Positions 11,433 to 32,807 of a stretch of DNA of 64,000 bases are shown in pieces. Made by a program: the position numbers and the translations under genes. How positions within the stretch are numbered: position 1 is the stretch's first letter; each line of letters begins with the position of its first letter. The DNA comes from a virus. The stretch is taken from the IMG/VR virus record IMGVR_UViG_3300031576_000002, positions 1 to 64,000 of that record; one strand, written 5' to 3'. The notes under the pieces are model-generated. The model was not told where the DNA came from. It saw only the letters and a list, made by a program, of their open reading frames with translations, and searched no databases.

Positions 11433-11840
11433 GATCTTCTCCTTTCTAGCGCAAGCGCTCACGCACACTCGCTTGCAACTGCGCACCGGCAAAGCGCGGA
11501 CATAGCGGGAGGTGCCCTGATGGACAAAGTTGGAGTAGTCACCGTTGAGGGCGACAAAGGCCGCCTCCGAGCCGCGCGATTCCGATGTCCAGGCCAGGAT
11601 TAGTTTTGGGGCAACTCTGGCAATCTTCTTGGCCTCCGCAAGCGTCGGAAGGCGCCAGTCAGTGTGACCACCTTCCCTGCAACCCGTGGCATAGTCCACA
11701 GCTTGCTGCCAGGTCAGATAGCGGCTTGCCCTAAGCGCCACCTGCAATGTACCGCCTCCCGTCTTCGCACCTCGCTGCTTCGTAGAGGACGTAGCGGCCT
11801 TCTCCTTCTTCCTGAGCGTATTCAAATCAATCTTTTTCAT
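11367..11840 (-). CDS. Lectin-like (DUF1566/Lcl C-terminal) protein with DGR-type variable region
   Basis: 157 aa by the open frame. After a basic N-terminus, residues 40-120 form a DUF1566/C-type-lectin-like domain: W-Q-Q-A-V-D-Y, D-W-R-L-P-T-L-A-E-A, W-T-S-E-S-R-G-S-E-A-A, ending R-A-L-P-V-R. The last 30 residues of that domain align without gaps to the protein at 31002-32807 and differ mainly at NNY codons. Such domains are display scaffolds in diversity-generating retroelements and serve ligand binding. There is no stop between the lectin end and the next cistron's GTG (11432), so about 36 residues of extension are read in frame. Confidence 0.75.
   Translation of the reverse strand: MKKIDLNTLRKKEKAATSSTKQRGAKTGGGTLQVALRASRYLTWQQAVDYATGCREGGHTDWRLPTLAEAKKIARVAPKLILAWTSESRGSEAAFVALNGDYSNFVHQGTSRYVRALPVRSCKRVCVSACARKEKIVRARRIVNAQGYAVKQDATVL
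11481..11591 (-). repeat. Variable region VR1 of a DGR-like pair
   Basis: 111 bases homologous, without indels, to VR2 at 31776-31886. The flanks match over long stretches (the C-terminal flank coding for A-L-P-V-R and the N-terminal flank coding for S-R-G-S-E-A-A). Between them 12 codons differ by amino-acid replacements at positions 1 or 2, all in NNY codons, as expected if both descend from an AAY-rich template by adenine mutagenesis. Confidence 0.65.
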
Positions 11841-11961
11841 CGCTCTCCTCCGTCACTCCCTCGCCGCAGCACGGCGAAGCGGGTTCGAGTTGAATATCGT
11901 TGCCGCAGTAGCCGTGAACCTCGTAGCGTCCAATGCCGCCGTCTATTACTTCTCTTGTCAA
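11827..11961 (-). CDS. Tiny cysteine-containing protein, TTG start
   Basis: 44 aa starting at TTG 11961, which overlaps the helicase stop as TTGA and follows a GAGG. It contains Y-C-G-N-D and P-C-C-G-E, three cysteines that might coordinate zinc, and ends overlapping the lectin-like gene by 14 bases. The tight overlaps support translation; otherwise uncharacterised. Confidence 0.45.
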   Translation of the reverse strand: MTREVIDGGIGRYEVHGYCGNDIQLEPASPCCGEGVTEESDEKD

Positions 11962-14144
11962 ACCACTGCCTCTAAGGCACAGAAACGAGAATTTCCCAGA
12001 ATGGTCAAGCGCTTCTTGGCTCGCGTCACTGCGATAAAGATCAGGTTCTTCTCCTGCTTGCGTTCCCACTCTTTCTTAGCCTTGGGGTGAGGCAACAGAC
12101 TGGGCTCCAGGATGTACACGCTATCAGCCTCAAGCCCCTTCCCGCGGTGGATACTGCTACAAATCACGCCCACGGCATCGTCCGAAAACACCTGCCCGAT
12201 CTTGTCTTCGAGATCGGCTAGTGTCATCGCACCATCCGACAACGCGATCAGGGTGTCCACCTTGTCGTCCAGAGCGTCGGTCGGGCGATCCAGCGCTTCC
12301 AGCTTGGCCGCCTCGCGCGTGTGATACTCGTTCAGCCGCGTCAAGAAGTCCACGATAGAGGTGCCGCCCAGCTTGCGAATCAGGGCGATCAGGCCAGCGC
12401 CAATATCCCTCCCCATAATCGTCGCCTTCTTACCCTGACGAATGAGGCCGAACGCGACCGAGACCAGGGGGGCATTGCACCGGCAGAGAACCATGTCCCC
12501 TGCTGCCAGCAGGTTCAGGGCCGCCTCAACTTTCGGCTCAATCCGCACCTCCCCTTCGGGAGCCGCCGCGCTGGCCTCGATCTCCGGTACAAACTGCCGG
12601 GCCAGGCGAACCACAGCTTGCGGGCACCGATACGAAATGCTAAGCGGCAGTACCTCTGCCTTCAGCTCGTTGATGAGCCGGTCCACCGCTTCCGCATCCG
12701 CTCCGCGGAACGAGTAGCATGCTTGATTCGCGTCGCCCACCGCAATGATGCGCCCATTCGGAGTCAGACTGCGCTGCAAGAGGCGGATCTGCGCCAAGTT
12801 GAGGTCTTGGCATTCGTCCACAAAGATCGTGTCATACTGCGCCACGGCCAGCTCCAGTGTCACCGGCAGCCATATCTGGTCGTCAAAATCCAGCTTCGTC
12901 GCCGTCTCAAAGTCCTTGCAGCGGTTGAGCACATCGGCCGCGATTACGATTGCCGCGTCTGCATCGCCATTCACGTCCAGTCCGTAGCGATCGATCAAAG
13001 AAATCGCTGCATCCCGCTCACGGAGGTCCGTCAAGGTCGCCTTTGCCAGAGATACCAGACGCTCCACAGAACGGGACAGCTCCTTGATCGCTTCCAAGCG
13101 CAGGTCAAGACCCCGCTCGCTCACAAGGATCTGCTTGATGAAGTCACGAATACGTCCGTTCGCGGTGTACTCGACCCGCTTCCCACCCAACGCCTTGTTG
13201 ACCGCGCCCCACCCCAGACTATTCAACGTCGAGATGTGGGCCGCCGAATCCGGGAGCCGCTTCTTGATCTCATTGGCAATCGACTTGTTAAAGGCGCAGA
13301 ATGCCACCCGTCCCTTCGCCAGCGGGAGAGCGCGCACCACGGTGGAGGTCTTGCCACTGCCGGCGGTGGCACGAATGACGACATTGCCGTGTCCATGCTC
13401 GACCGCTGCGAATACCCGCGCCTGATAGAGGCTCGGAGTGTACCCAGGCTTGCTGTACCGGGCCACCAGCTCCTCGTCCGTCAGAATGACCGGAGCCTCT
13501 TCCACCGGCTTAGCCTCGACCGAGGCCGGCGCGTTGACCTCCTCCTCGCGCACCTTCTCGATCCGGAGGCCGCCCTTGCCGGCCGCCTCGATCGCCTTGG
13601 GGTCGGTGGAGGGCGCCTTCTCGGTTGCGCGGCCCTTGCAGCCCGTGGCCTTCCACGCGGCGCAGGCGCGGAAGGTGCGCTCCGCGCCGGTCGCCTTGTC
13701 CTTGTACGCCTTGACGTAGATCGAGGCGCCACAGGTCGAGCAGGTACCGACCTCGTCCCGGATCCACTCGCGCAGGATGTTGCACTTGTCGCGCAAGCGG
13801 TCGAACAGCGCCGCCTTGGCCTGCGCCTCGTCGAGGCCGGCCGCAGCCGTCCGGTAGACACGGGGCTGCTTCTCGCGGAGGGGGACATCGTGGCGGGCGT
13901 CCACCACCACGATGCGGATGGCGTCCTCGCCGCAGTCGCGGCTAATGCCGGTACGAGCGTCGAGCGAGGAGTAGACCTTGACCTTGGCGGTCAGGATCTG
14001 CCGCTCGTAGACCAGCTCGTCACCCTGCTTGGGCGCGAGCACGAGCTTGGAGAAGGCCGCCTCGAACTCAGCCTTGGAGAAGGCAACGTAGGCCGCAGCC
14101 GGAGCATCCGGGGCGTCCTTCTTGGTAGCGCTCTTCTTCGCCAT
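11958..14144 (-). CDS. UvrD/Rep-like superfamily 1 DNA helicase with zinc-finger N-terminus
   Basis: 728 aa from the ATG at 14144 (AAAGGAG). The N-terminal 250 residues are phage-specific and include a four-cysteine element (C-S-T-C and C-A-A-W...GC, about residues 140-170). Helicase motifs follow: Walker A A-T-A-G-S-G-K-T (about 258), DEAD-like V-D-E-C-Q-D (about 440), Q-motif region, S-Y-R-C-P (motif IV), H-R-G-K-G-L-E-A-D (motif V) and V-A-V-T-R-A-K (motif VI, near the C-terminus). ATP-driven 3'-5' unwinding in repair or replication is expected. Led by its own promoter at 14168. Confidence 0.92.
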   Translation of the reverse strand: MAKKSATKKDAPDAPAAAYVAFSKAEFEAAFSKLVLAPKQGDELVYERQILTAKVKVYSSLDARTGISRDCGEDAIRIVVVDARHDVPLREKQPRVYRTAAAGLDEAQAKAALFDRLRDKCNILREWIRDEVGTCSTCGASIYVKAYKDKATGAERTFRACAAWKATGCKGRATEKAPSTDPKAIEAAGKGGLRIEKVREEEVNAPASVEAKPVEEAPVILTDEELVARYSKPGYTPSLYQARVFAAVEHGHGNVVIRATAGSGKTSTVVRALPLAKGRVAFCAFNKSIANEIKKRLPDSAAHISTLNSLGWGAVNKALGGKRVEYTANGRIRDFIKQILVSERGLDLRLEAIKELSRSVERLVSLAKATLTDLRERDAAISLIDRYGLDVNGDADAAIVIAADVLNRCKDFETATKLDFDDQIWLPVTLELAVAQYDTIFVDECQDLNLAQIRLLQRSLTPNGRIIAVGDANQACYSFRGADAEAVDRLINELKAEVLPLSISYRCPQAVVRLARQFVPEIEASAAAPEGEVRIEPKVEAALNLLAAGDMVLCRCNAPLVSVAFGLIRQGKKATIMGRDIGAGLIALIRKLGGTSIVDFLTRLNEYHTREAAKLEALDRPTDALDDKVDTLIALSDGAMTLADLEDKIGQVFSDDAVGVICSSIHRGKGLEADSVYILEPSLLPHPKAKKEWERKQEKNLIFIAVTRAKKRLTILGNSRFCALEAVV

Positions 14145-14167
14145 AATAGATTCTCCTTTCACTTAGT

Positions 14168-14196
14168 AATCTAATAAGACTGCACCCACCTGTCAA
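14168..14196 (-). promoter_or_regulatory. Promoter with AGTCT-type operator before the helicase
   Basis: TTGACA (14191-14196), 17-base spacer, TAGATT (14168-14173), minus strand. The dyad AATCT-AATA-AGACT overlaps the -10 box with one mismatch in one arm. The leader to the ATG at 14144 is about 20 bases and contains AAAGGAG. Confidence 0.8.
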
Positions 14197-14233
14197 GAGG
14201 CCCCCGCACTATTTTTCCGGCCCTGCCAAAATG

Positions 14234-14398
14234 TTAATAAATTCGGCCGACTAGGAAGGCCGCCAGCACAAGTAAGAATCCGGCAGTGATACCTGCTGCG
14301 ATCTGGATTCTACGATTCCGACGGCGACGCTCGACCGCCCGGACTACCGCCTGCTCTTCGGCGGCTAGATAGAACGCTACCCAGACAGGATCCATCAT
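14234..14398 (-). CDS. Small single-pass membrane protein
   Basis: 54 aa. An acidic/basic N-terminal half with a run of arginines (about 25-30) is followed by one hydrophobic helix (residues 32-50, I-A-A-G-I-T-A-G-F-L-L-V-L-A-A-F-L-V type). The start overlaps the upstream stop as ATGA. A small holin, an antiholin or a membrane anchor are all possible. Confidence 0.55.
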   Translation of the reverse strand: MMDPVWVAFYLAAEEQAVVRAVERRRRNRRIQIAAGITAGFLLVLAAFLVGRIY

Positions 14399-14544
14399 CC
14401 GACTTTCCAATCCACTCCCTGCTCTACTGCTCCAAAAAAAATCTCACAGGACAAGCCGCCTGTCCAGGGCCACGCAAAAAACAGAGGAAGCGCTTGTACC
14501 CACTTCACTACTTCCAGTACCCAGTAGTAGTCCCCCATCAGCAT
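14395..14544 (-). CDS. Small hydrophobic protein
   Basis: 49 aa, ATG start, last base pair coupled to the next gene through ATGA. Rich in Trp, Leu, Val and Phe (W-V-L-E-V-V-K-W-V, L-P-L-F-F-A-W-P-W), which suggests membrane association. The start codon lacks a clear ribosome binding site; the tight overlap is the main evidence. Confidence 0.4.
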   Translation of the reverse strand: MLMGDYYWVLEVVKWVQALPLFFAWPWTGGLSCEIFFGAVEQGVDWKVG

Positions 14545-14610
14545 CCCAGGAGACCTTACATGCTCTCGCAGATTTCTGTAAAAATCCTCTTCAAGATTAT
14601 CTGTCTCAGA

Positions 14611-14727
14611 TCATACATAGCAGGCTTCTAAAATCTCAGTACACGATTCCTGCCGGTCCTCTATACGCCAGCCCTTCTCGATACTCTCCAGAAAACTTCT
14701 CTTCGTGGTGGGCTCAAAGCTGCCCAT
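14611..14727 (-). CDS. Tiny soluble protein
   Basis: 38 aa, starting 4 bases after the stop of the membrane protein at 14731, with GGAG about 10 bases upstream. Charged helix with two cysteines near the C-terminus. Weakly supported; kept because of position and ribosome binding site. The 66 bases between 14545 and 14610 hold nothing I can identify. Confidence 0.35.
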   Translation of the reverse strand: MGSFEPTTKRSFLESIEKGWRIEDRQESCTEILEACYV

Positions 14728-14730
14728 ACC

Positions 14731-15054
14731 TCAAATCTCCAGCCGCAAGTAGCGCAGCCACTCCTCAATCACGTAAGCAGTTGCGACCGCGCCGAACCCG
14801 AATGCGATTGGCTCAACTAACGGTTGCAGCGTCCAGCTCCAAGGCATCCACGCCAGCCGAAGCGCGGCGGCAATCCAAAAGCTCAGGCACAGCTTGCACG
14901 ACCAGGGCTTCCGCTCCCAGATGATCGGAAGCTGGCCTAGCAGCCGCACCAACGGCGGCGGCTGATCGGTCGTCTTGGCCGTCAGGAACGGAAGGTACTG
15001 CTCCGTAAAGAGATGCGCTGCGCCGTAAGCCGACAGCAAAAATACAAGTTCCAC
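14731..15054 (-). CDS. Membrane protein with CxxC (DUF1360-like)
   Basis: 107 aa, three hydrophobic segments (residues 1-20, 58-75, 80-98) with a C-K-L-C-x-S-F-W motif just before the second, a pattern seen in phage and Firmicutes membrane proteins of the DUF1360 type. Separated from the upstream gene by 2 bases. Might act in lysis or in membrane modification; not established. Confidence 0.55.
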   Translation of the reverse strand: MELVFLLSAYGAAHLFTEQYLPFLTAKTTDQPPPLVRLLGQLPIIWERKPWSCKLCLSFWIAAALRLAWMPWSWTLQPLVEPIAFGFGAVATAYVIEEWLRYLRLEI

Positions 15055-15056
15055 GG

Positions 15057-15659
15057 TTACGCCATCCGTTTGTCTTGCTGCGAGTTGACTTCTGCACCTT
15101 CTGTAAACCGTCGAATTATATTCGCCTCCATCTCAGGACTCCAGTCATGCAATGTCCGATTTCCAACCCCTGCGCCATTCGGCCATTCCAGATGTCCGTG
15201 CGTCAGCTTCACCCGCTCAAAATACTGCGGATCTCTCAACTGCCCGTAGACAGAGCCAATCATTATTGGCCGGAAATCAATCGTCTTCTCTGTCCCGTCG
15301 TCGAACATCATCTGGATCACTCCATGTCGTACAATGCGGTAATCCAGAATTTGATAGAATCTTGGTGCAGCAGCTTTCTTACGCGAACGCTTCTCGTACG
15401 GAGCAATCCTGTTTGGATGCTGTCCTACCGAGAGAAGTTCCCAATTTGCAAGTAGCTCACTCGCATGCTCTCTCGCCCATAACTGCACTTCCTTCTCCGC
15501 CTTGATAGCATCTTCTGTCAGCCTGAACGCCGAGGGAATCTCGTACACTGCGCTGGTTCCGTCTGTAAGCTCTGCGTGAAAGTGCGGTAAATGGTGAGGT
15601 TCATCAAACTCCGCATTCACGTAAACCCGGACATTCTTCCAACGTGATACTTCCGCCAT
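15057..15659 (-). CDS. Fused DUF4160-DUF2442 protein
   Basis: 200 aa from the ATG at 15659. Residues 8-75 match DUF4160: a basic start, H-H-L-P-H-F-H-A-E (22-30), then the E-x-x-x-A-x-x-W helix. Residues 115-180 match DUF2442: G-V-I-Q-M-M-F-D-D-G-T, L-R-D-P-x-x-F-x-x-V and L-E-W-P-N-G. In bacteria these two families are normally separate adjacent genes of a putative toxin-antitoxin pair; here they are one protein with a short linker. A defence or anti-defence role is possible. Confidence 0.75.
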   Translation of the reverse strand: MAEVSRWKNVRVYVNAEFDEPHHLPHFHAELTDGTSAVYEIPSAFRLTEDAIKAEKEVQLWAREHASELLANWELLSVGQHPNRIAPYEKRSRKKAAAPRFYQILDYRIVRHGVIQMMFDDGTEKTIDFRPIMIGSVYGQLRDPQYFERVKLTHGHLEWPNGAGVGNRTLHDWSPEMEANIIRRFTEGAEVNSQQDKRMA

Positions 15660-15700
15660 CGCTGCTCGTCTAAGCTGCCGGGTAACTTTCTGGAGCCGTT

Positions 15701-16549
15701 TCAAGATGCACCCACTCTCCGAAAAAGATTCCAATGCTCCTGCGCAAATCGTTCCCATGTCAGATGTTTGACCAATCGCCCCTCTTCATCACTGTCGCGC
15801 AATCTGTCGAGGTACAATGACTGCACGACCTCTACCAAACTGGTCAACGATCCACGATTGTAATGAATCGCGGGATAGCTCACGGCGTAGCCAATCGGCG
15901 GAATGATCGTCTGCACTCCGCATGCAAGCGCTTCGAGCAGCGGTACGGGACCACCCTCGATGTCGGACGTGCAAAGCAGGTAGTCGAGCCCGGCGTAGAA
16001 CGCAGGCAGTTTCTCGATCTGGAACGGTTCGGCCGAAAGCCCCCAGCCTTCCCCCATGATCCGCAAGACCACATGCTCTCGCACCCAGGGGTCGAACGCA
16101 AAGCGATGAAGAAGGTCGCGTCCCTTGCGCGTATCGAGGTTGTTTGTGGGCATATCATAGGTGCGGCCTACGACTCCAAGCACGAGGCGAGGCTTGTAGA
16201 TTGGGTCAACTCCAAGCTCGATTACGGTGATCTTCTCTTCTGGAATCCCGAAACGAAGAAGATCTTGCTTGGTGTACTCGGACATCGCCACGCAGAAGTC
16301 AACCCGCTTGGCTACGTCAATGAAGATCGGGCCGAGGACTTTCGCGGAGTAGTGACAGAAGAAAGCCCCGGACTTTTTTGCGCGCCCTGGGATCCTATCA
16401 AAATAGCCGTAGTTAATCGAAAATCTGATCTCTGCGTCCAGCCAGTAGTTCTCGTTCCAGCGCACTTCGTCTGGCGCTGCGTCCCGGATAACGCGGGCGC
16501 ACTTCGGCAGAATCCAGTTGCCGGGCTCGGAACAGAGATTAACTTGCAT
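15701..16549 (-). CDS. Glycosyltransferase (GT-B fold, GT4-like)
   Basis: 282 aa from the ATG at 16549. C-terminal Rossmann domain shows the GT4 pattern: V-G-R-T near residue 140, then the helix preceding E-G-G-P-V-P-L-L-E-A-L-A-C-G (about 200-215), which binds the nucleotide sugar. Shorter than typical GT4 enzymes. Overlaps the HNH gene by 11 bases. With the GTs at 17309 and 18067 it forms a glycosylation cassette, probably for virion protein or DNA base glycosylation; acceptor unknown. Confidence 0.75.
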   Translation of the reverse strand: MQVNLCSEPGNWILPKCARVIRDAAPDEVRWNENYWLDAEIRFSINYGYFDRIPGRAKKSGAFFCHYSAKVLGPIFIDVAKRVDFCVAMSEYTKQDLLRFGIPEEKITVIELGVDPIYKPRLVLGVVGRTYDMPTNNLDTRKGRDLLHRFAFDPWVREHVVLRIMGEGWGLSAEPFQIEKLPAFYAGLDYLLCTSDIEGGPVPLLEALACGVQTIIPPIGYAVSYPAIHYNRGSLTSLVEVVQSLYLDRLRDSDEEGRLVKHLTWERFAQEHWNLFRRVGAS

Positions 16550-17312
16550 TCTGACCGGCCTTCTTAGCACGATAGCGTCTTCCGTACGCCTTCACCCTCT
16601 CCGCAAACGCAGCATCATTTTTTATCCTATTCCGTATTCTCAGGTTTCGGCACGCTTTACATATCCGGCTAGTACGAAACTTGCCTCTATTGAGTAGTAG
16701 ATTGTCTCCATCTAACCTGTGCAATCCTTTTACGCAGACATTCAGACGACTGGATACCTGGCTTGGATGATTACCACGCCTTAAATTCTCTTGAGGAGTG
16801 ACAGGCTCTAAATGCGCAGGATTCACACAAGAGGTGTTTTTACACAGATGGTCCAGGTGCAACTCGGGCGGAATAGGCGTAAGAGCAATATGTTCGTACG
16901 CCCAGCGGTGGGCTCTTACAGAAGTCCCTTTATAGTAGAATACGCCATAACCGTCTAAATCCTTCCCGGTCTTCCACTCAAAGCAGCCGCTCGCAGTTAC
17001 GGTAACGCACCTGTTAAATCTCTCCAACGCCTTCACTTCATAGCGAGAAGCATAAGGTTCCAAATGAAGTGGCCCAACACAGCGCATATTACCGCAGATA
17101 GGTAGCAACCGGGCACTCCAGGGCAAAGGACCAATCATCCGCTTGTAGATCCAGTGAGACGCAGACTCTTGACGAGGCTTGCCGCCAGAAAAAAAGTGTC
17201 TATGACTCGACTGCCATATAAGGCACCAAGAAGAATTATCAGGTTCTACCTTAGCCAAAAATCTACTAAAAGGGTCTCCCCCGCTCCCCGCAGGTCTGCC
17301 TAATTTTTTCAT
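16539..17312 (-). CDS. HNH homing endonuclease-like protein with duplicated HNH core
   Basis: 257 aa from the ATG at 17312. Second half holds a full HNH_3-type core: L-H-L-D-H-L-C-K-N-T-x-C-V-N-P-x-H-L-E-P followed by Q-E-N (about 160-185). A degenerate copy lies earlier (I-C-G-N-M-R-C-V-G-P-L-H-L-E-P, about 80-95). The cysteine pairs suit a zinc-stabilised fold, and the C-terminus has another C-x-x-C. It sits between glycosyltransferase genes, overlapping both, typical of free-standing phage homing endonucleases. AT-richer than its neighbours, which suggests later acquisition. Confidence 0.8.
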   Translation of the reverse strand: MKKLGRPAGSGGDPFSRFLAKVEPDNSSWCLIWQSSHRHFFSGGKPRQESASHWIYKRMIGPLPWSARLLPICGNMRCVGPLHLEPYASRYEVKALERFNRCVTVTASGCFEWKTGKDLDGYGVFYYKGTSVRAHRWAYEHIALTPIPPELHLDHLCKNTSCVNPAHLEPVTPQENLRRGNHPSQVSSRLNVCVKGLHRLDGDNLLLNRGKFRTSRICKACRNLRIRNRIKNDAAFAERVKAYGRRYRAKKAGQNAS

Positions 17313-18094
17313 CTCTTTCCTGCCTCTCGTGCAGCTACCAACTTTTCTATCAACTCCCCGTGCCGCAGCTTGATCCACATCGAATTCTCATAGTAAAAAC
17401 TGTGCGTAGGCTTCCCATAACTACGACTACGCCAGTGCCAAATAGGATGTTCTCGCTGACAGACCACTCGCCAGCCCCGCTCTTGAACTTGCAGACACGC
17501 CTCACAGTCTTCCCAAGAATGCGGAAAAAATAGTTGGAAGCCGCCAATCTCCTCCCACAGACTACGAGGCATGAATAACCCACACCCAGTCACGCCCTCC
17601 ACATAAGCGCTCACCTGATACTCCGGCCGGTCATCCTCGAACTCGGCGATATGGTGCCAGCTTCCATCTGCCCGGTACTCCGTACCCACATGGCCCAACT
17701 TGCCCGTATCGGGAAACAGATGCTTCACCCCTATTATACCGGCGCGCTCAAAACGACTGAAGCAAGCTAGGGTTGCGCCTAGCCACTCAGGGTCTCGAAA
17801 CTCCAGATCCGTGTTCATGTGCGCGACGTAGGGCGTCGTCGCCATTGCGAACACACGATTGACTAGAACCGCGGACATTCCCGTTCTAGCAAAGCGCTCG
17901 TACTCGATCGGATAACTGACCTTCTTGCGAACGGCCTCGACCAGATCGTAGATAGGCTCGGTCGAGCCATCATCCACGATGACAGCGACAAAGTCGCGAT
18001 ACGTCGTCTGGTCGAGCGTTTCCAGCGCCACGCGCAGGAGCGCCGCCTGATTGTAAGTCGGGAAGACTAGAGTGACTGCGGCGGAGTAAACCAT
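17309..18094 (-). CDS. Glycosyltransferase family 2
   Basis: 261 aa from the ATG at 18094. V-F-P-T-Y-N-Q (about 12-18), V-D-D-G-S-T (about 48), and H-M-N-T-D-L-E-F (DxD-like metal and sugar-nucleotide site, about 110) are diagnostic for GT2, with W-E-D-C-E as the likely catalytic acid segment (about 205). Inverting transfer from a nucleotide sugar is expected. Overlaps the GT4-like gene upstream by 28 bases. Confidence 0.88.
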   Translation of the reverse strand: MVYSAAVTLVFPTYNQAALLRVALETLDQTTYRDFVAVIVDDGSTEPIYDLVEAVRKKVSYPIEYERFARTGMSAVLVNRVFAMATTPYVAHMNTDLEFRDPEWLGATLACFSRFERAGIIGVKHLFPDTGKLGHVGTEYRADGSWHHIAEFEDDRPEYQVSAYVEGVTGCGLFMPRSLWEEIGGFQLFFPHSWEDCEACLQVQERGWRVVCQREHPIWHWRSRSYGKPTHSFYYENSMWIKLRHGELIEKLVAAREAGKR

Positions 18095-19203
18095 GTCTTG
18101 TGCGCCAGCTCGTCGTACATTTTTGAGAGGGCTTCTGCGGCTCGCGCCCAATCAAAGTTATCTTGCACGTACTTCTGCGACTCGTCAGTCAGTGGCGCTT
18201 CGACCGCATTCGAGATCGCGTCTGCGATCGAGGAGATCGAACTGGGCTCGCAGAGGAATGCACCTGGAAATTCCTCGAAGTAGGTCTGACTCGTCAGCAC
18301 AATCTTACAGCCCGCCAGCGCGGCTTCCAGGGCTACGTTAGGCATCGGGTCGAACGTAGACGCCAGCACCAGAATCCGGCTCTGCCTGTACAGGTCCGCC
18401 AGCTTCGCCCGGCTCAGGTTGCCGGCGTAGTTGAAGCGGTACTTTCGGCACTGCGACCAGTAGGCGGCATCCAGCACTGGACCCGCTAGAGTAGGAACGA
18501 TGCCATGACGTTCGCAGGCTTGCAGCACCAGCTCCTGATTCTTCCGGGGACTGATGCTGCCCGCGATCAGTACCTCGACGGGCCTGTCAGCGTCCAAGTC
18601 GCCCTGGAAGCTGGAATCGACGCCTTTCGTGAGGATTCGGAACTGCACTGCGCCGTCCAGCCCCGGGTACTCCGCCGTCAGAACTTGCCGCTCTCGGGCG
18701 GAGTAGACGAGAAGCGCGGTGGCTCTTTCCAGTACCGCCCTGACTTTGGAAGGCTCTGGGATTCGATGGATGAAGCGGGGGAAGTAGATTGGGGTGACGA
18801 GATAAGGGCGATCTCTCCGCCAGATTTCTACCGCCGCGCTCAGCGTCCAGGGCCATGCTGCATTGTAGAGATGGTAGATCGGAAACGTCGCCGCGCTACT
18901 AACCTCGGAAGCACACGGCGCTTGGATTCCTATTTTGTCGAGCGCGGTGCGGAACCCGTCCATCTCGACAAAGTCGCCGCCATCCCACGAGGATCGGTCT
19001 CGATTGACGAAGAGAACTTGGGCACCCGTTACCGTTTTGGCTGCAAGGTCTTTCCGCGAGAAGGGTTCCAACAGCATGCGGGAGCGGGAACGTGAAAACG
19101 CATGCGCAGCCCCACGTCGCGCCTCCTCCATGCGAAGCGCATGGATCTGGGCTCTACGAGTAGGAGGGGGTGCGAACGGCAGCTTGCCAACAGTGCGCGC
19201 CAT
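18067..19203 (-). CDS. Glycosyltransferase family 4
   Basis: 378 aa. A basic, disordered N-terminus (about 45 residues) precedes a GT-B fold. Characteristic segments: V-L-I-A-G-S-I-S-P-R-K-N-Q (about 210, the nucleotide-sugar loop with R and K), F-D-P-M-P-N-V-A-L-E-A-A-L-A-G (about 300, EX7E-type motif). An alternative GTG start lies one codon upstream. Transferred sugar and acceptor unknown; grouped with two other transferases. Confidence 0.82.
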   Translation of the reverse strand: MARTVGKLPFAPPPTRRAQIHALRMEEARRGAAHAFSRSRSRMLLEPFSRKDLAAKTVTGAQVLFVNRDRSSWDGGDFVEMDGFRTALDKIGIQAPCASEVSSAATFPIYHLYNAAWPWTLSAAVEIWRRDRPYLVTPIYFPRFIHRIPEPSKVRAVLERATALLVYSARERQVLTAEYPGLDGAVQFRILTKGVDSSFQGDLDADRPVEVLIAGSISPRKNQELVLQACERHGIVPTLAGPVLDAAYWSQCRKYRFNYAGNLSRAKLADLYRQSRILVLASTFDPMPNVALEAALAGCKIVLTSQTYFEEFPGAFLCEPSSISSIADAISNAVEAPLTDESQKYVQDNFDWARAAEALSKMYDELAHKTWFTPPQSL

Positions 19204-25129: not shown

Positions 25130-25556
25130 GGTTCATCCTCAGCATGCACCTATCGGACTTCTTCTCAAAGTACAGCGTAAGGTCAGCGTCAAGAAATCGT
25201 GTAACGGCCCCTTGCCCGCCAAAAGCTTCTGGAAGCGGTACCGGCTTTGGCCTCGGCACGAACACGGGTCGGAGCATCTTGTTCCATACCAGCGCGATCT
25301 TGAAGAGTCTATCACGGCAGCCGGGATACGTGCGATCTTTCGTGTTGTAGAGCGCACTCGGCCCGAACTGCGGTATGGCTCCGTCAAGGATCGAGAGCAA
25401 GATCGCGGGACGGTACCGCCGCATCCTGAGAAGCCGCTGGATCTTTTTCGGGAGGGTGCGTACCGGCGTATCCGATACAGGTAGCCCGTCCCTGCGCTGA
25501 ATGTGAATCCGGGAACGGGAGTAGTTCAGCGCGTGATCGTGATAGATCAGTTGCAC
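24936..25556 (-). CDS. Unknown basic protein, overlaps next gene
   Basis: 206 aa. The first 135 residues look like a true protein (alternating charged and hydrophobic residues; segment V-F-V-P-R-P-K-P-V-P), but the last 60 residues fall inside the 24818-25129 frame and are low in hydrophobic content. No recognised family. A frameshift that truncates its C-terminus is an alternative explanation. Confidence 0.5.
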   Translation of the reverse strand: MQLIYHDHALNYSRSRIHIQRRDGLPVSDTPVRTLPKKIQRLLRMRRYRPAILLSILDGAIPQFGPSALYNTKDRTYPGCRDRLFKIALVWNKMLRPVFVPRPKPVPLPEAFGGQGAVTRFLDADLTLYFEKKSDRCMLRMNRDGQQLETWITPSARFAIQWIAVFLLAHSKRLDDCCVQSARSAQGSTRKDATNAEGEATRSPAG

Positions 25557-25558
25557 TT

Positions 25559-26284
25559 TTACGTGTCGCCGTACTTGTCAGGTTCAGTCTCTAGCTTCTT
25601 GCAAGCTTCTTGGAGGAGCTGGAGAAACTTTTCAGTCAGCGCAGATCCATCTGGGTGTAGACTGATTACATGCAAGATATGCTTTTGCTCAGGCCCTTCT
25701 TCCATGACTTTCGGATTTCTGAGAATCGTTTTCCATACATCAACGTCATCCTGCGGCTCCCCTCTCAGCATCTTTGTAAGAATGGCAAAAGCTAGCGAAG
25801 GGCCTACTACCTGGACGCCGTGTGAAGTCGCTGGAATAGTTTCGCCTTCGTTCAGTGCGATCTCTAACGCCTCGGGTTTGTGCGTCACAAACTGGATCTT
25901 GACGCCACTTTCCCCATGCTTGAGTGTAATCCGATTCGGACGGAACGTACCCCCTGCTTCACGAATCTCGACTTCCCGAAATCTGTAACGGCTTGCGGCA
26001 TCTATTACTTTCGGCAAGGAGTGCGCGAAGATCATAAAATCGAGGTTTTCGGTCGCACGCACGTAGCCGTGAATTCCTAGCGCGGTCGCTCCGATCAGTA
26101 CGTAGGACACGCCCAGGTCGTCCAACATCCTGACTGCGTCACGCAGGGTAGCCCCAAAGTCGCCTGTACCCGCAGCACCTCGGTAGAGCAGCGCATCCCG
26201 CGCAAAACCTGTGCTCCACGCAAGCGTCCGATCCAAAGAGGGACGCCCATCAAGAAGGGCTGCGACTTCTTGCAGGGCCTGCAT
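25559..26284 (-). CDS. Nucleotidyltransferase-fold protein (AbiEii/DUF6036-like)
   Basis: 241 aa. V-L-I-G-A-T-A-L (about 62-69) is the glycine/alanine loop and R-A-T-E-N-L-D-F-M-I (about 75-84) corresponds to the D-x-D motif, but the first aspartate is replaced by asparagine, so catalysis may be impaired. A second acid lies in G-V-K-I-Q-F-V. The C-terminal lobe is helical (F-A-I-L-T-K-M-L-R). Third of three such proteins; here beside head genes. Confidence 0.65.
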   Translation of the reverse strand: MQALQEVAALLDGRPSLDRTLAWSTGFARDALLYRGAAGTGDFGATLRDAVRMLDDLGVSYVLIGATALGIHGYVRATENLDFMIFAHSLPKVIDAASRYRFREVEIREAGGTFRPNRITLKHGESGVKIQFVTHKPEALEIALNEGETIPATSHGVQVVGPSLAFAILTKMLRGEPQDDVDVWKTILRNPKVMEEGPEQKHILHVISLHPDGSALTEKFLQLLQEACKKLETEPDKYGDT

Positions 26285-26290
26285 AGGAGG

Positions 26291-27076
26291 TCAGAGCTCG
26301 AAGCCTTGCGCCAGGATCTCACGGGTGGCTGCAAGGATCCGGTGGAAGCCTTTGATCTGCCGCCCAACGTCTTTTCGCTCGGAATCAGACGCGGCGGATA
26401 GCGACCAGCGGAATCCGGTCAGTCCGTTCTCGACTAGGCTGGCGATCTTCTGCGCCTCTTCCGCAACTTTCGCAGCGGCAACGATCAGGTCCTCGTCCTT
26501 CTCCGGCGCCTCGTCTCCAAGCACAAGCGAGATTTCCGACAGCGCCTCGACTGCTTCCGTATCTTCTGCCTGAGCCTGCGCCGTGCGCCGGACCCAGTCC
26601 AGATTGATCGGCGAGTTGAGATTGTGGAACGCCCTTCCCACGGCTTCATCTGCCTGAGTGTGCGTCAGGCCGTACTCGTGCTGGAGGCTGAGAGCGGTCT
26701 CGCCGATAGGACCGAGCGTGGTCATACGCTCGCCTTCCTCCGCCCGGGTATCGACCAGGGTGAAAATCTTGTAGGTCGAGTCGTAGTAGAGAAGCTGGCC
26801 GTACTGCTCGGGACTCGGCTCTCCCTGCGCCTTTTTGTGCAGAGAAGCTCCGACATCTACGGACTTCTTTTCAGGCTTCATGAACTCTTTGACGCACTCC
26901 CACCCGCACAACTCGGCGCCCATGGTCGGATTGTAGACCCAGCCTGGTTGCTTACCCGGACCAGGTGCCTTGTAACCGCATTGCTCGCAAGTCGTACCTG
27001 GACTAACGCTCTGTTCCCGCCAACCGCCAGGCTGGTGCTGAGCTTCCTTCGTGCTTTCAGTGGCTGACGGCAACAT
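26291..27076 (-). CDS. Zinc-finger and helical protein
   Basis: 261 aa from the ATG at 27076, 20 bases inside the upstream gene. C-E-Q-C (about 30) and C-G-W-E-C (about 57) near the N-terminus form a zinc finger; the middle includes T-F-L-like beta strands, and residues 150-250 are a long alanine/glutamate-rich helix bundle. Likely a phage-specific structural or DNA-associated protein; no match recognised. Confidence 0.55.
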   Translation of the reverse strand: MLPSATESTKEAQHQPGGWREQSVSPGTTCEQCGYKAPGPGKQPGWVYNPTMGAELCGWECVKEFMKPEKKSVDVGASLHKKAQGEPSPEQYGQLLYYDSTYKIFTLVDTRAEEGERMTTLGPIGETALSLQHEYGLTHTQADEAVGRAFHNLNSPINLDWVRRTAQAQAEDTEAVEALSEISLVLGDEAPEKDEDLIVAAAKVAEEAQKIASLVENGLTGFRWSLSAASDSERKDVGRQIKGFHRILAATREILAQGFEL

Positions 27077-27269
27077 GGCTGGCCTCCTCGTCAATCAATC
27101 GCAGCGCAGCTTTCACTTTCCCAAGATCCATCTCGAACGTCGTGTCCCCGATCTTGAACCATACAGGAGCAAAGTGCTCGGGAATGTTCGAGGGCGGACG
27201 AATGATTTCAACTTCGACCTGCCTCGCTTCTTTCGACTCTGGCTCGAAGTATTTTGCACGAACTCTCAT
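27057..27269 (-). CDS. Small beta-rich protein
   Basis: 70 aa. Alternating beta pattern (V-R-A-K-Y-F, V-E-V-E-I-I-R, V-W-F-K-I-G) then a helix. Its start shares a base with the end of the upstream gene at 27269. Compact and acidic; function unknown. Confidence 0.55.
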   Translation of the reverse strand: MRVRAKYFEPESKEARQVEVEIIRPPSNIPEHFAPVWFKIGDTTFEMDLGKVKAALRLIDEEASHVAVSH

Positions 27270-28756
27270 TAGACCTCCACCGCTGGCGTCTCGAACAGCT
27301 TGATGAGTTCCGCCATCTTCTTCTGGACGGCGTTCACGGTGGGATCAAGCCCTTCAAGGCGCCCCACGGCTTCGGCTAGATCCGACATGGGATCCCTGAA
27401 GAGTCGCTTGAGCTTGCCCACAACGTTGCCGATCTCCTCGATCAAGCGGCTGATGGGATTACTAGCCTGTGCCAGTCGGCGCATTGCAGGTCGCTGCATC
27501 TCCAACGACGGCGCGGGAGCTTCCTCGGGCACTCCCTGCTCCTGCTCACGTCGCTGGGTCTGCTTGACTTCCTTCGCGAGTCCGGGCGACCAGGGAAAGA
27601 TCGCCAGCAGCCGGTACAGGATGCGGCGCACGGGGCTGACAATCTTCTCCCGAACACGGTCCACCGCTGCCTCAATCTTGGCGTACTCACGGCTTTGCTC
27701 GCCGTAGATGTCCTTGAGTTCGTCGAGCACGGCCGCCAGCGTCTCCAGCCGGATCACGTCTTCGTCGGAGACATCGACCCGTTTCCCTTTCTTCATTGCA
27801 ATGATCCACTGTTCGTACTTGAAGTTCAGCTTCTCCGCAAGCTGAGAAGTACGGAAAATCTTGGTACTGTGCGCCGCCAGATGCGTTCCACCTGCCTCGG
27901 AAAAGTTGCTCGCGGATTCGGCCAGAGGAAGGAGATCGCTCAGCGCAGCATCCAACTTGGCGCCCAGCTCTTGCAGCTCCCGCTGGATCTCCTCGTGCTT
28001 CCGCCAGGTCTGCGACTTGTGCATCGCTTCCTGCGCCTTCTTCACGAGTTCCTTGCTCTCGGCCGCGAGCCCTTCCATGGAAGCCTTGACCTTGAGCGCA
28101 TTGTCGGTAAGCTTGGCGAGCTTCTTGTTGATCTGCTCCAGCTCAGTGAACTCCCGCTGAATGTCGATCTCGGGCGTCTTCTTCTTGAGACTGAGGTACT
28201 TATCCTCTTCCTCCTCTTCCACCGGCTGCGCCTGACACAAAATCGCGGCTACCCGTTCGATACGGGCCAGGGCTCGCGTCAGCAGCGTGAACTTGGGATC
28301 CAGGGACGCTGTCTTGATCCTCCCCTGCGTCCCGATCTCCCACTCGACCCAGACTGTAGAATCGGGACCTGGTGCGATCACTTCTCCGACGACACGCTTG
28401 CCTGCGGCCTCGGATCTCACGAGATCGCCTACCTCGAAATCGCGCGCGGTAGAGAGGCTGGCAACGTGCTCCCGCATGCCTTCCATGGCGGCTTTGACAG
28501 CGAAGGGGCGGTAGATCGTAGAAAGATCCTCGTGAATATCTTCGAGCGATCTTCCCAGCATCCACAACGCCACAGCGCGACTCTGGGCGTCTTCCTCTTT
28601 CTTCTTGGGCTGCGCAAGTCTTACTTCTGCGGCCTTGACCATAAGCCGCTCGCCCGTCGAGATAGAGGTCACGTATGCGACATCACCCGTGCGTCCTTCG
28701 TAGGTACCGATGTCGTCGCGCAACTCGACAGTCGCGCCAATGGGAATGTTACTCAT
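27269..28756 (-). CDS. Large coiled-coil protein with SH3-like N-terminus
   Basis: 495 aa from the ATG at 28756. Residues 1-50 and 115-160 resemble KOW/SH3 beta barrels (G-A-T-V-E-L-R-D-D-I, V-G-D-L-V-R-S-E). Residues 205-300 form a long coiled coil rich in E, K and L, and the C-terminal 130 residues have further helical repeats (P-V-R-R-I-L-Y-R-L-L-A-I-F-P-W). Long coiled coils of this kind occur in phage scaffold and tail proteins. Function not established. Confidence 0.6.
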   Translation of the reverse strand: MSNIPIGATVELRDDIGTYEGRTGDVAYVTSISTGERLMVKAAEVRLAQPKKKEEDAQSRAVALWMLGRSLEDIHEDLSTIYRPFAVKAAMEGMREHVASLSTARDFEVGDLVRSEAAGKRVVGEVIAPGPDSTVWVEWEIGTQGRIKTASLDPKFTLLTRALARIERVAAILCQAQPVEEEEEDKYLSLKKKTPEIDIQREFTELEQINKKLAKLTDNALKVKASMEGLAAESKELVKKAQEAMHKSQTWRKHEEIQRELQELGAKLDAALSDLLPLAESASNFSEAGGTHLAAHSTKIFRTSQLAEKLNFKYEQWIIAMKKGKRVDVSDEDVIRLETLAAVLDELKDIYGEQSREYAKIEAAVDRVREKIVSPVRRILYRLLAIFPWSPGLAKEVKQTQRREQEQGVPEEAPAPSLEMQRPAMRRLAQASNPISRLIEEIGNVVGKLKRLFRDPMSDLAEAVGRLEGLDPTVNAVQKKMAELIKLFETPAVEV

Positions 28757-29531
28757 CGAGAAGATCCTCCGCGCCGATATGCGTACCGACATGTTCCCAG
28801 GCCCACAAATCCTCGGAAGGAATCTGGTGGGTCTCTTGCGTTCTCAGGTCGAGACTACAAACGCTGTCTTCCGTTGCTGCGATCACCTTGACCAGCGTGC
28901 GACCGTCCATACTGCGCAGCATGTCCCCTGCCGCAACAGACGCAGACATCGGGCGGGGATCGAACTCTTCTCCGAGGTCTTGGTAGTTCTGGCCCTCTTC
29001 CCACTGCGTTCGGAGTGGCTGCTCATCAAGCAGCAAGCTCGTCACTTCCGCACTTTTGCAGTGGGGGCAAGACAGATCCACGCTCTCGGTCGCTTGCATG
29101 CCAAAAAGAGTACCACACGCCGAGCAGCGAAAGCGAGAAGCGGCTGCCTCTTCCACCAGGTAGATCTTGTCCTGACTCTCTGCCACCTTCCGGTAGAGGC
29201 CCTTGGGAAGATCGCTACCCGTTGCACGCTGGTAGCGGATTCTTGCTTCGGGGTAGGACCAGCCATCTTCGACAAGGGCTTGCAAGATCACGGGATCGCC
29301 CGCAAGCATTTCACGGCCTCGGTGCTTGTTCATTTGTTCGCCTCTCCCTCGCGGATTCCAGGGACTCACAGGTGTCACGCCAAGGGTGGTGTCGCTGCGG
29401 TAGTCTACACCCTCTTCCCGGTAACGGTCGGCAGACCAACTGTAGTCCCGCGTCGTAGCGCCGGGATCCAGCCGGTCCCAGTCTCGCACACCCGTCGGCT
29501 GCTCCTTCTTCTTGATCCGTCGTCGGGGCAT
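28749..29531 (-). CDS. Zinc-ribbon protein with disordered N-terminus
   Basis: 260 aa. Basic, proline- and arginine-rich N-terminus (residues 1-70), then C-S-A-C-x(n)-C-P-H-C zinc ribbon (about 140-165), and a C-terminal SH3-like or beta segment. Its stop overlaps the next start and its start shares a base with the nucleotidyltransferase stop. Unrecognised. Confidence 0.55.
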   Translation of the reverse strand: MPRRRIKKKEQPTGVRDWDRLDPGATTRDYSWSADRYREEGVDYRSDTTLGVTPVSPWNPRGRGEQMNKHRGREMLAGDPVILQALVEDGWSYPEARIRYQRATGSDLPKGLYRKVAESQDKIYLVEEAAASRFRCSACGTLFGMQATESVDLSCPHCKSAEVTSLLLDEQPLRTQWEEGQNYQDLGEEFDPRPMSASVAAGDMLRSMDGRTLVKVIAATEDSVCSLDLRTQETHQIPSEDLWAWEHVGTHIGAEDLLDE

Positions 29532-30463
29532 CAGTCCTCGTCCTCTTCTTCGATGGTATCGCGCAGATCATCGACATTTTCATCCGTGATTTCTACGTCT
29601 TTGAACTCAGAGTACAAACGCTTGAGAAGCGTCACGTACTGCCAGCGTTCCAGCAGCTTGGACACGATATTGGCCGGAGCCAGGTTAGCACTTTCACCAG
29701 GTCCTACCGGACAATCTTCGCCCGGACACTTGTCCAAGTAGGTCGAAAAGACTTCGGCACGTTCCCTGTCGAACGTATCGTAGCTCGCAAGCACGGTCTC
29801 TACGTCATCATCCAGTTCCTGTATCTTACCGTCGATCCGTCGCATGACCGCAGCGCGCACGTCAAGAGGTACTTTGCGCAATGCTGCACGCAAAAAGTCG
29901 AGGTCGCGCAAATCGCGCTCGGTCTCGCCCAGTTCCAGATCGAGCTTTCGCGCCCAGCTCACGGCACGCGCGTAGACGTCCTCCTCAAGCTGCTCAGGAT
30001 CTTCAATGAGCGGGGCTGGGTCGTAGTCGAACCAAACTTCTTTCATCACGTCGTAGACGTTATCGAGAACGCCAATCCGCTTCGGCCATTCTTCTCGGGT
30101 CGCAATGAAAAAGTTCACAGGATGCTCGGCCACTTGGTAGCGGCCATTCAAGTCAGGCAGGATTTTTTTGATCTCGTCTCGCCTTCCTTCGTCTACGTCC
30201 AGGACAACGCCGATGTCGAGATCCGCCGCCGGTGCCCAGTTCTTTGACGTGATCGAGCCGGAAAGGAACACGCCTTCAAGAGCGTCTTCACTGAGCCCCG
30301 ACTCATCTAGTAGGTCGGACAGTCCATCACCGATTGCCTGGCGGGTCTCCTCACGGAGTCGAGGCGGATCCTCGGAAAGATCCCAGACAGTCTCGTCGAG
30401 CTGATCCAGTGGATAATCCAGCGGACCTGCCAGCAGAGCAATGGCGTTTTGAAGAAAGCTCAT
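29531..30463 (-). CDS. Nucleotidyltransferase-like domain protein (pol-beta fold)
   Basis: 310 aa. F-L-S-G-S-I-T (about 66) followed by P-A-A-D-L-D-I-G-V-V-L (about 78-88) is the G-S-x(n)-D-x-D motif of pol-beta-type nucleotidyltransferases. An additional acid could come from V-N-F-F-I (about 118). Unlike the other three, this one has a long C-terminal helical and acidic tail ending in E-E-E-D-E-D. Substrate unknown; could modify RNA or protein. Confidence 0.7.
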   Translation of the reverse strand: MSFLQNAIALLAGPLDYPLDQLDETVWDLSEDPPRLREETRQAIGDGLSDLLDESGLSEDALEGVFLSGSITSKNWAPAADLDIGVVLDVDEGRRDEIKKILPDLNGRYQVAEHPVNFFIATREEWPKRIGVLDNVYDVMKEVWFDYDPAPLIEDPEQLEEDVYARAVSWARKLDLELGETERDLRDLDFLRAALRKVPLDVRAAVMRRIDGKIQELDDDVETVLASYDTFDRERAEVFSTYLDKCPGEDCPVGPGESANLAPANIVSKLLERWQYVTLLKRLYSEFKDVEITDENVDDLRDTIEEEDED

Positions 30464-31005
30464 GCACGCTCTCGTAGGCTGATCTCGATTCGCACGGCTC
30501 TCGATTCAGGCGTGACTCTTACTTCGACCCTGGAGGTATCAAGCGCTGCATCAAGCACTAACCGGGCTCTCCACCGTCTTGCCTCTCGATCATCGTCCCG
30601 CATCTGAAAGGTTTCATCTGGCTTCGGTATTCTACGTTTCCGCTTTCGTAGCCCCAGATCCAGTTCAGTCTGCTCGGTCGTACTTCGCGGACGTTCTGCA
30701 CGGTACAGGATTTCTTCTGCCAGTGGAGAAGCAGCTTTCAAAAAAGTCTGCCGTATGTACGGAAGCTGTCTCTCTGTCCACGCTGCGGATTCTACAGGTT
30801 TGCCTGAAGGGATGATGACTACGATACGGGCTCGGTCTCGTGGATGAAGTGTACCTTTCGGGTTCAGAAACTCTTTTGCCGCGTGTGCTACGGCAGCGCC
30901 TACTAACTGAAGATTTCTGAATTCTACTTTCGACAGTCCTTTATCATCCAGCGGAAGTTCCTGCTGACCCTTCAAGATACAGACCACGCGCCGAAGATGG
31001 ATCAT
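30460..31005 (-). CDS. Unknown protein, beta-rich C-terminus
   Basis: 181 aa, overlapping the next gene by four bases (ATGA-type). A conserved-looking segment R-A-R-I-V-V-I-I-P-S-G-K-P (about 60) and a basic linker K-R-K-R-R-I-P-K-P (about 123) stand out. Possibly binds nucleic acid through the basic linker. No family assigned. Confidence 0.55.
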   Translation of the reverse strand: MIHLRRVVCILKGQQELPLDDKGLSKVEFRNLQLVGAAVAHAAKEFLNPKGTLHPRDRARIVVIIPSGKPVESAAWTERQLPYIRQTFLKAASPLAEEILYRAERPRSTTEQTELDLGLRKRKRRIPKPDETFQMRDDDREARRWRARLVLDAALDTSRVEVRVTPESRAVRIEISLRERA

Positions 31006-31718
31006 CGTTCGCGCCGAAAGACGCGGTGAAACTCGCCCGGCGGCTGTTGGTGGAGCTGCACTTGATCGGCTTCATCCACGCCGTAGGGTGGCAGGCGACC
31101 CTGGTTCCAGCGGCGAATCTTGGGGCGTGCTTTGAGGCTCGGCATGATCGGGCCTAGACCACGGGCACGGTCCATGCGCTCCATCTCTTCCAGGTCGCCT
31201 ACCGTTAGAAAGCGACGCCGCTTGTGCGGAACGATCAGCGTTTGGTCCCGGTCTCTTTTCGCATACCCCCCACCCATGCCGGGGTAGTGATAGAGTTCGG
31301 GATCGACGTATTCGTCCGGCTCCAGAGATGTCCAGCGCGGTTGGTACTCCGCCGCCTCGTGAACAGTAACGCGATCCCCGACACCAATACGGCTTGTCCG
31401 GCAGAATCCGCCCGCAGTCTCCAGCACTCCCCCCACACTCGCACAATGGTAGAGGTCATGATCGCCTGGCTGGACGTTGTGGACGATGCGAGCTACCTGG
31501 TAGCCACTACCGGCGTGACGCAGGAACACCATGTCAATCGGGAACGGGACCGTGGACATGTGAAAGGTAACGGACGCGGGAACGTGGTAGGGAAAGAGCA
31601 TGGCTTGGTCACGCTCCAAGCTAGAGTGCTTTGAAAGTCCAATACGCTTTTCGCTATCGGAATCGGCAACGTGTGCCCGGAGCTGGACTTTCCCTAGCCT
31701 TAAAATTACTTCTCGCAT
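31002..31718 (-). CDS. DUF192 protein, internal cistron
   Basis: 238 aa if initiated at the internal ATG 31718, which has a strong ribosome binding site (AAGGGG, 7 bases upstream). Residues 10-115 match DUF192: R-I-G-L-S (the R-x-x-G-L motif), A-M-L-F-P-Y, F-H-M-S-T-V-P-F-P-I-D-M-V-F-L, and V-x-x-V-Q-P-G near residue 85. The C-terminal 110 residues are basic and unique. DUF192 proteins in bacteria are secreted or periplasmic with unclear role. Translation as a separate protein is suggested by the internal start. Confidence 0.65.
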   Translation of the reverse strand: MREVILRLGKVQLRAHVADSDSEKRIGLSKHSSLERDQAMLFPYHVPASVTFHMSTVPFPIDMVFLRHAGSGYQVARIVHNVQPGDHDLYHCASVGGVLETAGGFCRTSRIGVGDRVTVHEAAEYQPRWTSLEPDEYVDPELYHYPGMGGGYAKRDRDQTLIVPHKRRRFLTVGDLEEMERMDRARGLGPIMPSLKARPKIRRWNQGRLPPYGVDEADQVQLHQQPPGEFHRVFRRER

Positions 31719-32807
31719 TGCGGTTCCCCTTTTCTCCTTCTTACCCTCTAGCCCATCTTCACCGAACTTGCGAAGGCGCACCGGCAAAGCGCGGGAGAAG
31801 TGGGAGTAGCCCTGGGCGCCGAAGTTGGAGTTGCCATTGAAGAGGTAGACGTAAGCCGCCTCCGAGCCGCGCGATTCGGAGGTCCAAATCCATACGGGCT
31901 CTTTGTACAAGCCCGTCTCGTAAATCCTCTTCGCCTCTTCTGCCGTAGGAAGTCTCCAATCTGTGAATCCTCCCTCTCGATAGTTTCTGGCGTAGGTTGT
32001 GGCATCCTTCCAGTTGATGTCTTTTCCGTTGTGACCTTCGGCAACTTGAAGATTACCCAGCGGCTTGAGCCGCTTCTCTAGCTCTTCTGGATGACTGAAA
32101 AGCCACGCCTTTTCAAATTCTTCCGCCTTTACCTTTCCTAGCCCGATCTCATCCAAGATTGGAGCTATTTCTTTCGACACTCTCAGGTTTATTCTTTTAC
32201 CATCTACATCTTTCAACTGCCCACTTTCAGGATGAGCTAAGACGTAAGGCTCGCCACCCTTGAAAATCATATACAACGGTCCCTGCTCACTGTACTCCTT
32301 TGCTCTCTCTGGGTATCTAACACACCATCCTTGTGCGTCGTAGTCCTCGCATATACGCATGATTGCGGCTGGAGTCGTGGTCTTAACTACGGCGTAGGCT
32401 CCATCATCGTATATCTTCTGCTGTCCTTCCTTCTCCTCAATCTGCTTCTTATGTTCTTTGGACTCCTGACCTTTTGACTCTCGAATAACTTGGGCTAGAT
32501 CAGAAAAGGAACGGTACTGATTGATGTCTTTTGGACTTGTGAATCTCGGACTACTCTTTAGCTTGTCAAAGGTTATGAGAATGTCGTGAATCTTCTCAGA
32601 GTCCTCTGGAATTATAATGTCTTGCTTTTTGAGAAGTCGTAGGATCCACCCCAGATACTTCTTCTCGGTAGTAGGATCGGCTTCGGCAGCATCTCGTATC
32701 TTGGCTTCCTCGAACTGAGGAAACAGTTGGAGAAGCTTGGAAAGCCTTTCCTCCAAGCCTCCTCCCAGCAGCCAAACCGCAGAATGGAGCGTACCTGCCC
32801 TATTCAC
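31002..32807 (-). CDS. Lectin-like DGR-type variable protein continuous with DUF192
   Basis: 601 aa by open frame. Residues 1-130 are helical; residues 130-200 contain an A-Y-A-V-V-K-T-T-T-P...G-W-C-V-R segment known from phage head or internal proteins; residues 250-350 are a DUF1566/C-type-lectin-like domain ending R-A-L-P-V-R with the variable region VR2. There is no stop before the DUF192 part (from residue 364, ATG 31718), so a full-length fusion can be made. The same read-through architecture occurs at 11367-11840. Confidence 0.7.
   Translation of the reverse strand: MNRAGTLHSAVWLLGGGLEERLSKLLQLFPQFEEAKIRDAAEADPTTEKKYLGWILRLLKKQDIIIPEDSEKIHDILITFDKLKSSPRFTSPKDINQYRSFSDLAQVIRESKGQESKEHKKQIEEKEGQQKIYDDGAYAVVKTTTPAAIMRICEDYDAQGWCVRYPERAKEYSEQGPLYMIFKGGEPYVLAHPESGQLKDVDGKRINLRVSKEIAPILDEIGLGKVKAEEFEKAWLFSHPEELEKRLKPLGNLQVAEGHNGKDINWKDATTYARNYREGGFTDWRLPTAEEAKRIYETGLYKEPVWIWTSESRGSEAAYVYLFNGNSNFGAQGYSHFSRALPVRLRKFGEDGLEGKKEKRGTAMREVILRLGKVQLRAHVADSDSEKRIGLSKHSSLERDQAMLFPYHVPASVTFHMSTVPFPIDMVFLRHAGSGYQVARIVHNVQPGDHDLYHCASVGGVLETAGGFCRTSRIGVGDRVTVHEAAEYQPRWTSLEPDEYVDPELYHYPGMGGGYAKRDRDQTLIVPHKRRRFLTVGDLEEMERMDRARGLGPIMPSLKARPKIRRWNQGRLPPYGVDEADQVQLHQQPPGEFHRVFRRER
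31776..31886 (-). repeat. Variable region VR2 of a DGR-like pair
   Basis: Partner of VR1 (11481-11591). Identical at both flanks over about 18 bases on one side and over 20 on the other, but 12 NNY codons encode different residues: F/Y, A/Y, N/F, G/N, D/G, Y/N, V/G, H/A, T/Y, R/H, Y/F, V/S. The invariant codons (TCC, CTC, GTC, GGC, CGC) contain no adenine. Confidence 0.65.

Follow-up and report, generated by a model that had tools for sequence, protein, structure and literature searches.

Three lectin-like genes of an apparently closed 205-kb phage genome contain variable regions (VRs) that, judging by their sequences, were almost certainly written by a diversity-generating retroelement (DGR), in which a reverse transcriptase (RT) scrambles adenines, although neither an RT nor a template is detectable anywhere in that genome. 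Probably, either the host or another mobile element provided the mutator, or the phage lost it recently. The usual description of a DGR is that of a cassette whose mutator and targets move together. The virus record (IMG/VR IMGVR_UViG_3300031576_000002) comprises 205,227 bp, of which the window, that is, the whole 64,000-nucleotide stretch that was analysed, represents bases 1–64000.

The initial annotation of the window described two homologous 111-base regions, VR1 and VR2, and both were recovered at the same positions on the minus strand, in a gapless alignment with 86 of the 111 bases identical (E = 7e-20; Table 1). A search of the whole record with a third region, VR3, located outside the window, shows that the 111-mer occurs in exactly three copies. 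The flanks of the hypervariable core, already reported as identical in VR1 and VR2, are common to VR3 as well, so that 23 + 18 bases are the same in all three VRs although the surrounding genes differ. Despite the common 18-bp 3' flank, no hairpin better than those of shuffled sequences was found downstream of the VRs. A fourth, diverged DUF1566 match (genome 182474-182632) lies in the gene directly downstream of the VR3 gene. The ORF that harbors VR2 consists of an uncharacterised N-terminal part, the DUF1566/Lcl_C domain (residues 260-339) and DUF192, all in the same frame, and possibly represents either a fusion or a pair of adjoining genes with no intervening stop; an RBS-like AAAAGGGG and an ATG precede DUF192 immediately.

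Table 1. Target genes, variable regions and terminal repeat of the phage (window coordinates unless marked as genome).
Feature	Position	Strand	Basis
VR1 target gene, 157 aa, DUF1566/Lcl_C (PF07603) at residues 38-115	11367..11840	-	ORF; Pfam Lcl_C E=1.6e-7, just under curated cut-off
VR1, 111 bases (37 codons)	11481..11591	-	blastn against VR2 and VR3, 77-79% identity, gapless
VR1 hypervariable core, VR codons 12-31	11499..11558	-	three-copy codon table
VR1 invariant 5' flank, GAATCGCGCGGCTCGGAGGCGGC	11560..11582	-	identical in VR1-3
VR1 invariant 3' flank, CGCGCTTTGCCGGTGCGC, IMH-like position	11481..11498	-	identical in VR1-3
VR2 target ORF, 601 aa	31002..32807	-	Pfam Lcl_C 6e-8, DUF192 1e-19
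VR2, 111 bases	31776..31886	-	84% identity to VR3, 77% to VR1
VR2 hypervariable core, codons 12-31	31794..31853	-	codon table of three copies
VR2 invariant 5' flank	31855..31877	-	same sequence as in VR1 and VR3
VR2 invariant 3' flank, IMH-like position	31776..31793	-	same sequence as in VR1 and VR3
VR3, 111 bases, outside the window	genome 182956-183066 (L007:4956-5066)	-	79% identity to VR1, 84% to VR2
Terminal direct repeat, left copy	1..227	+	second copy at the right end, genome 205001-205227, identity 226/227

Comparison of the three copies by codon position provides the principal evidence on their origin. Of the 111 bases, 18 are not the same in VR2 and VR3, distributed 10/8/0 over the three codon positions; all the changes at positions 1 and 2 fall within NNY codons, and none of the 37 third positions differs. 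Because every third base is the same, VR2 and VR3 appear to have been copied recently from a common template, where “recently” is meant in comparison with the time since their genes diverged. Between VR1 and VR2, there are 25 differences (7/11/7). The 12 codons in which the initial annotation noticed replacements at positions 1 and 2 are indeed NNY in both copies, and with VR3 included, the set of variable codons grows to 13, every one of them NNY in all three copies. The silent changes were only partly as described: the five T/C third-base differences are there, but so are one A/C and one C/G difference (VR codons 2 and 3). VR1 thus has seven third-base differences from both VR2 and VR3, which implies that not all copies are being refreshed; VR1 is either older or was written from an earlier template. 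Outside the VRs, the picture is different: over the 51 codons that precede the VR, the VR1 and VR3 genes have 47 differences (11/12/24), so that the share of third-position differences is 0/18 for the VR2-VR3 pair versus 24/47 for this upstream region (Fisher p = 8e-5). The fourth DUF1566 copy differs from VR3 by 11/14/19, and the gene encoding it, which adjoins the VR3 gene, has not been refreshed. In the VRs, then, the codon position that normally changes fastest is static, whereas positions 1 and 2 of the 13 codons vary freely. A test of whether adenines that do not vary are underrepresented at positions 1 and 2 of the codons in the VR core gave no significant result (p = 0.15). The template that can be proposed for the phage is WTSESRGSEAAYVNLNNDNSNFNNQGNSNNNRALPVR, which is a reconstruction from the three VRs rather than an observed sequence.

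Another line of support comes from related phage contigs with complete DGRs. A profile of the DUF1566 proteins matched 14 IMG/VR contigs, three of which encode an RT. The cis DGRs of these contigs (L018/L033, L024/L034 and L027/L032) are similar to the phage in the DUF1566 domain, the multi-VR design, the lack of third-position differences between VRs and the places of the template Asn codons, but they contain the RT and the template beside the targets, whereas both are absent from the phage record. In the RT-bearing L024 and L027, pairs of VRs differ by 8/6/0, 6/10/0, 6/9/0 and 6/7/0, and where a VR differs from its template, the template has A at 11/13 to 15/16 of the sites; the L018 contig is consistent with this pattern but less clear. 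The L024 template reads ...WNVNLNDGNSNRNNQDNHNH...; all its Asn codons (9/9) fall on codons that are variable in this phage (hypergeometric p = 0.004), and the CAG codon that does not vary in the phage VRs is CAG in this template as well. We infer the adenine origin of the variable codons without a template from the phage itself, and this agreement with L024 supports it. Two other IMG/VR phage contigs, L023 (372 kb) and L028 (88 kb), show 12-16 DUF1566-like matches, many of them partial, and no RVT_1 match, an expansion that is unexplained; these were considered as further orphan cases but dropped, given that the differences among their repeats are not similarly A-biased.

The target domain is identifiable by both profile and structure comparisons. 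Four matches to DUF1566/Lcl_C (PF07603) were found in the record, with E-values from 9e-10 to 1e-7; two copies pass the curated Lcl_C cut-off in a six-frame search, whereas the whole-protein scans are just below it. The AlphaFold2 model of the VR3 protein (built with 12 relatives) has block pLDDT values of 82-96 over residues 11-100. Among PDB entries, the model is closest to the C-terminal domain of Lcl (8q4e, E = 2.4e-4), ahead of weaker matches to C-type lectins and intimin (E of 0.02-0.08); a profile search also yields 8q4e, at E = 4e-10. The model thus supports a C-type-lectin-like fold of the target domain, as in the Lcl domain. DUF1566 is among the most frequent Pfam domains of DGR targets (PMC4159848, PMC6642488). 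Taken together, VR3, the 10/8/0 signature shared with RT-bearing relatives, the template agreement and the fold uphold the DGR-type interpretation put forward in the initial annotation.

The genome is taken as closed because of the 227-bp terminal repeat and the open reading frame, 189 aa long, that spans the junction of the joined ends, so that the phage genome is apparently complete. The repeat is restricted to the two ends of the record and occurs nowhere else in it; its sole mismatch is at position 100 (C/T), and because of it the repeat would escape any test that requires the two ends to match exactly. No runs of N were found in the 205,227 bp. Several other features of the genome are worth recording. 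Three 1.2-kb repeats, about 87% identical, are located at window 2734-3973 and genome 146689-147873 and 160037-161273, and the copy within the window contains the gene for a TnpB/OrfB (IS605) protein that includes a Cas12f1-like TNB domain. A family A DNA polymerase carries a fused uracil-DNA glycosylase domain at its N terminus (window 51685-54450, minus strand), a short gene encodes ESMEE-type tandem repeats (genome 104312-104680, L003), and a run of about 12 C within a predicted gene (L007:3600-3800, genome ~181.7 kb) is a possible slippage site or assembly weakness.

The failure to find an RT or an adenine-rich copy, originally noted for the window, extends to the entire 205-kb record, in which the only third copy is VR3, not a template. 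RVT_1 produced no match in the record at E<=0.001 or at E<=10, with the control genomes positive; a DGR-RT profile made from two RTs detected all three control contigs but not the phage record (E up to 10); tblastn of RTs against the record returned only noise (at best, 21 residues at E = 0.046); and RT-like motif spacing was absent from every frame. Queries with the 111-mer or the proposed template matched only VR1-3, and no remnant of an RT or a template was detectable in the record. Likewise, PF05635 (Avd-like) gave no match in the record, but this model also misses two of the three RT-bearing control contigs. Thus, of the two observations that, according to the initial annotation, would together speak against a DGR, one was made, namely, that an apparently complete genome contains neither RT nor template, and the other was not, the substitutions being confined to adenine-derivable NNY codons. 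With the substitutions so confined, the VRs are still attributed to a DGR, and the principal result is that the mutator is missing.

A potential donor was sought in several databases. Searches of IMG/VR with the exact flank patterns gave chance matches or nothing, and the proposed AAY template pattern had no match there. Single-protein searches detected no relatives of the VR1 protein in IMG/VR or of the VR3 protein in INPHARED, and no VR DNA was found in plasmids (PLSDB) or phages. A scan of GTDB for the exact site WTSESRGSEAA found none, although a template starting inside this stretch would escape it. GTDB scanning otherwise yielded only two weak DUF1566 relatives, in a Flavobacteriia MAG and a Syntrophaceae MAG, and the VR is absent from both genomes. 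Within the phyla of these two MAGs, covered by 395 genomes of the phylum of L055 and 396 genomes of the phylum of L054, the search for a matching template returned 24-35-bp chance matches or none, with the 396-genome search run without a positive control. These negatives (IMG/VR, GTDB representatives, INPHARED, PLSDB and ~790 genomes from two phyla) are weak because the host is not identified and the third bases of the template may have drifted. Judged by the portal protein (37% identity), the nearest phage is Virus Rctr197k, which comes from a DAMO/AAA enrichment culture and lacks both DUF1566 and RT; three IMG/VR contigs with a related portal also lack an RT. The portal protein of the phage (21112-24423, minus strand) contains an intein-like insertion (LAGLIDADG_3 / Intein_splicing) that is absent from the Rctr197k portal, and a similar insertion is present in a RecA-like protein (49808-51688, minus strand).

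These observations are best explained by the following scenario. A DGR RT would have reverse-transcribed an adenine-rich template RNA, making errors at A, and part of the DUF1566 (C-type-lectin-like) domain in each of the three phage genes would have been replaced by the resulting cDNA. The RT and the template would be encoded elsewhere, be it in the host chromosome, in a resident prophage or in a co-infecting element with the same flanks, and would write, or would recently have written, the phage VRs in trans, such that the phage benefits from a mutator that is not its own. The target products might be ligand-binding proteins, with the binding surface being varied. Trans supply is mechanistically possible: when BPP-1 DGR components are provided from a donor plasmid, they act on targets carried by a phage or a separate plasmid (PMC3240598), and chromosomal reporters are edited by a DGR that resides on a plasmid (PMC12875486). 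That an RT and a template encoded elsewhere modify, or until recently modified, these three DGR targets in trans strikes us as an evenly balanced proposition, although it is the likeliest of the explanations considered; more tentatively, a large virus may have outsourced its DGR, with three targets bearing matching flanks diversified in trans by the RT and template of a host or co-resident element. Counting against trans supply are the failure to find a donor, the drift of VR1, the lack of a significant downstream hairpin and the fact that loss of a cis cassette would look the same.

Such a loss is the alternative that fares best, even if we consider it rather unlikely. The phage or its immediate ancestor would have possessed a complete cis DGR, or would have gained the VR genes by recombination from such a phage; the RT and template would have disappeared or failed to be transferred, with the VRs inherited as ordinary sequence from then on. 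Related phage contigs do hold DUF1566 targets with an RT and a template in cis, target genes without RT and TR in Treponema denticola isolates have been interpreted as remnants (PMC4891356), and both the drifted third positions of VR1 and the divergence of the fourth DUF1566 copy fit this course of events; however, the identity of all third positions in VR2 and VR3 requires that the loss was very recent, the frames are intact at three dispersed loci, and no vestige of the RT or the template can be discerned. It is unlikely, too, that the phage population does have an RT and a template, and that the assembly followed a variant without them or was falsely closed: the IMG/VR record was assembled from a metagenome and its end repeat has one mismatch, but this repeat is found only at the two ends and is otherwise identical, the frame remains open across the joined ends, and the record is free of N runs. 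Finally, an origin without any DGR, through diversifying selection on paralogues or DUF1566 gene conversion, is highly improbable: the genome does have DUF1566 paralogues, and gene conversion might homogenise the flanks, but selection alone does not spare third positions (0/18 for VR2-VR3, against 24/47 upstream and 19/44 between VR3 and the fourth copy), all 13 variable codons are NNY in each copy, and the variable sites coincide with the Asn codons of true DGR templates.

Targets separated from their mutator have been described in cellular organisms. The partial DGRs of the DUSEL4 nanoarchaea (Paul 2015, PMC4372165), which consist of a target gene, VR and cis elements only, resemble the phage in the adenine-directed VR change and the lack of an RT at the site, and their authors left open whether these are fossils or are diversified remotely; there, however, complete DGRs exist elsewhere in the cellular genomes, whereas the apparently closed virus genome has none. 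The T. denticola isolates (PMC4891356) similarly contain VR-containing target genes without the core DGR components, but these are cellular, with sister strains that encode a matching core, whereas no sister of the phage is known. The BPP-1 DGR (mtd, brt, avd) also varies a phage-encoded C-type-lectin-like target at adenine-derived codons but is a cis cassette with an IMH and a downstream hairpin (PMC3240598), in contrast to the phage described here, which has no cassette and no clear hairpin. In phages that do carry an RT cassette, distal second VRs are known (PMC12629997). In the open-access literature (subscription papers and preprints were outside the scope), we came across no description of a closed phage genome that has several DGR targets but lacks an RT. 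Hence orphan VRs were already known in cells, and what is new, within that literature, is the presence of several in an apparently closed phage genome.

The existence of three targets, two of them recently written, in a genome without a mutator makes it testable whether the DGR of one genome diversifies the proteins of another in nature. If this is the case, evolution of phage ligands could depend on which host or co-infecting element provides the enzyme, and targets of this kind would go unnoticed in surveys that use RT genes as the starting point.
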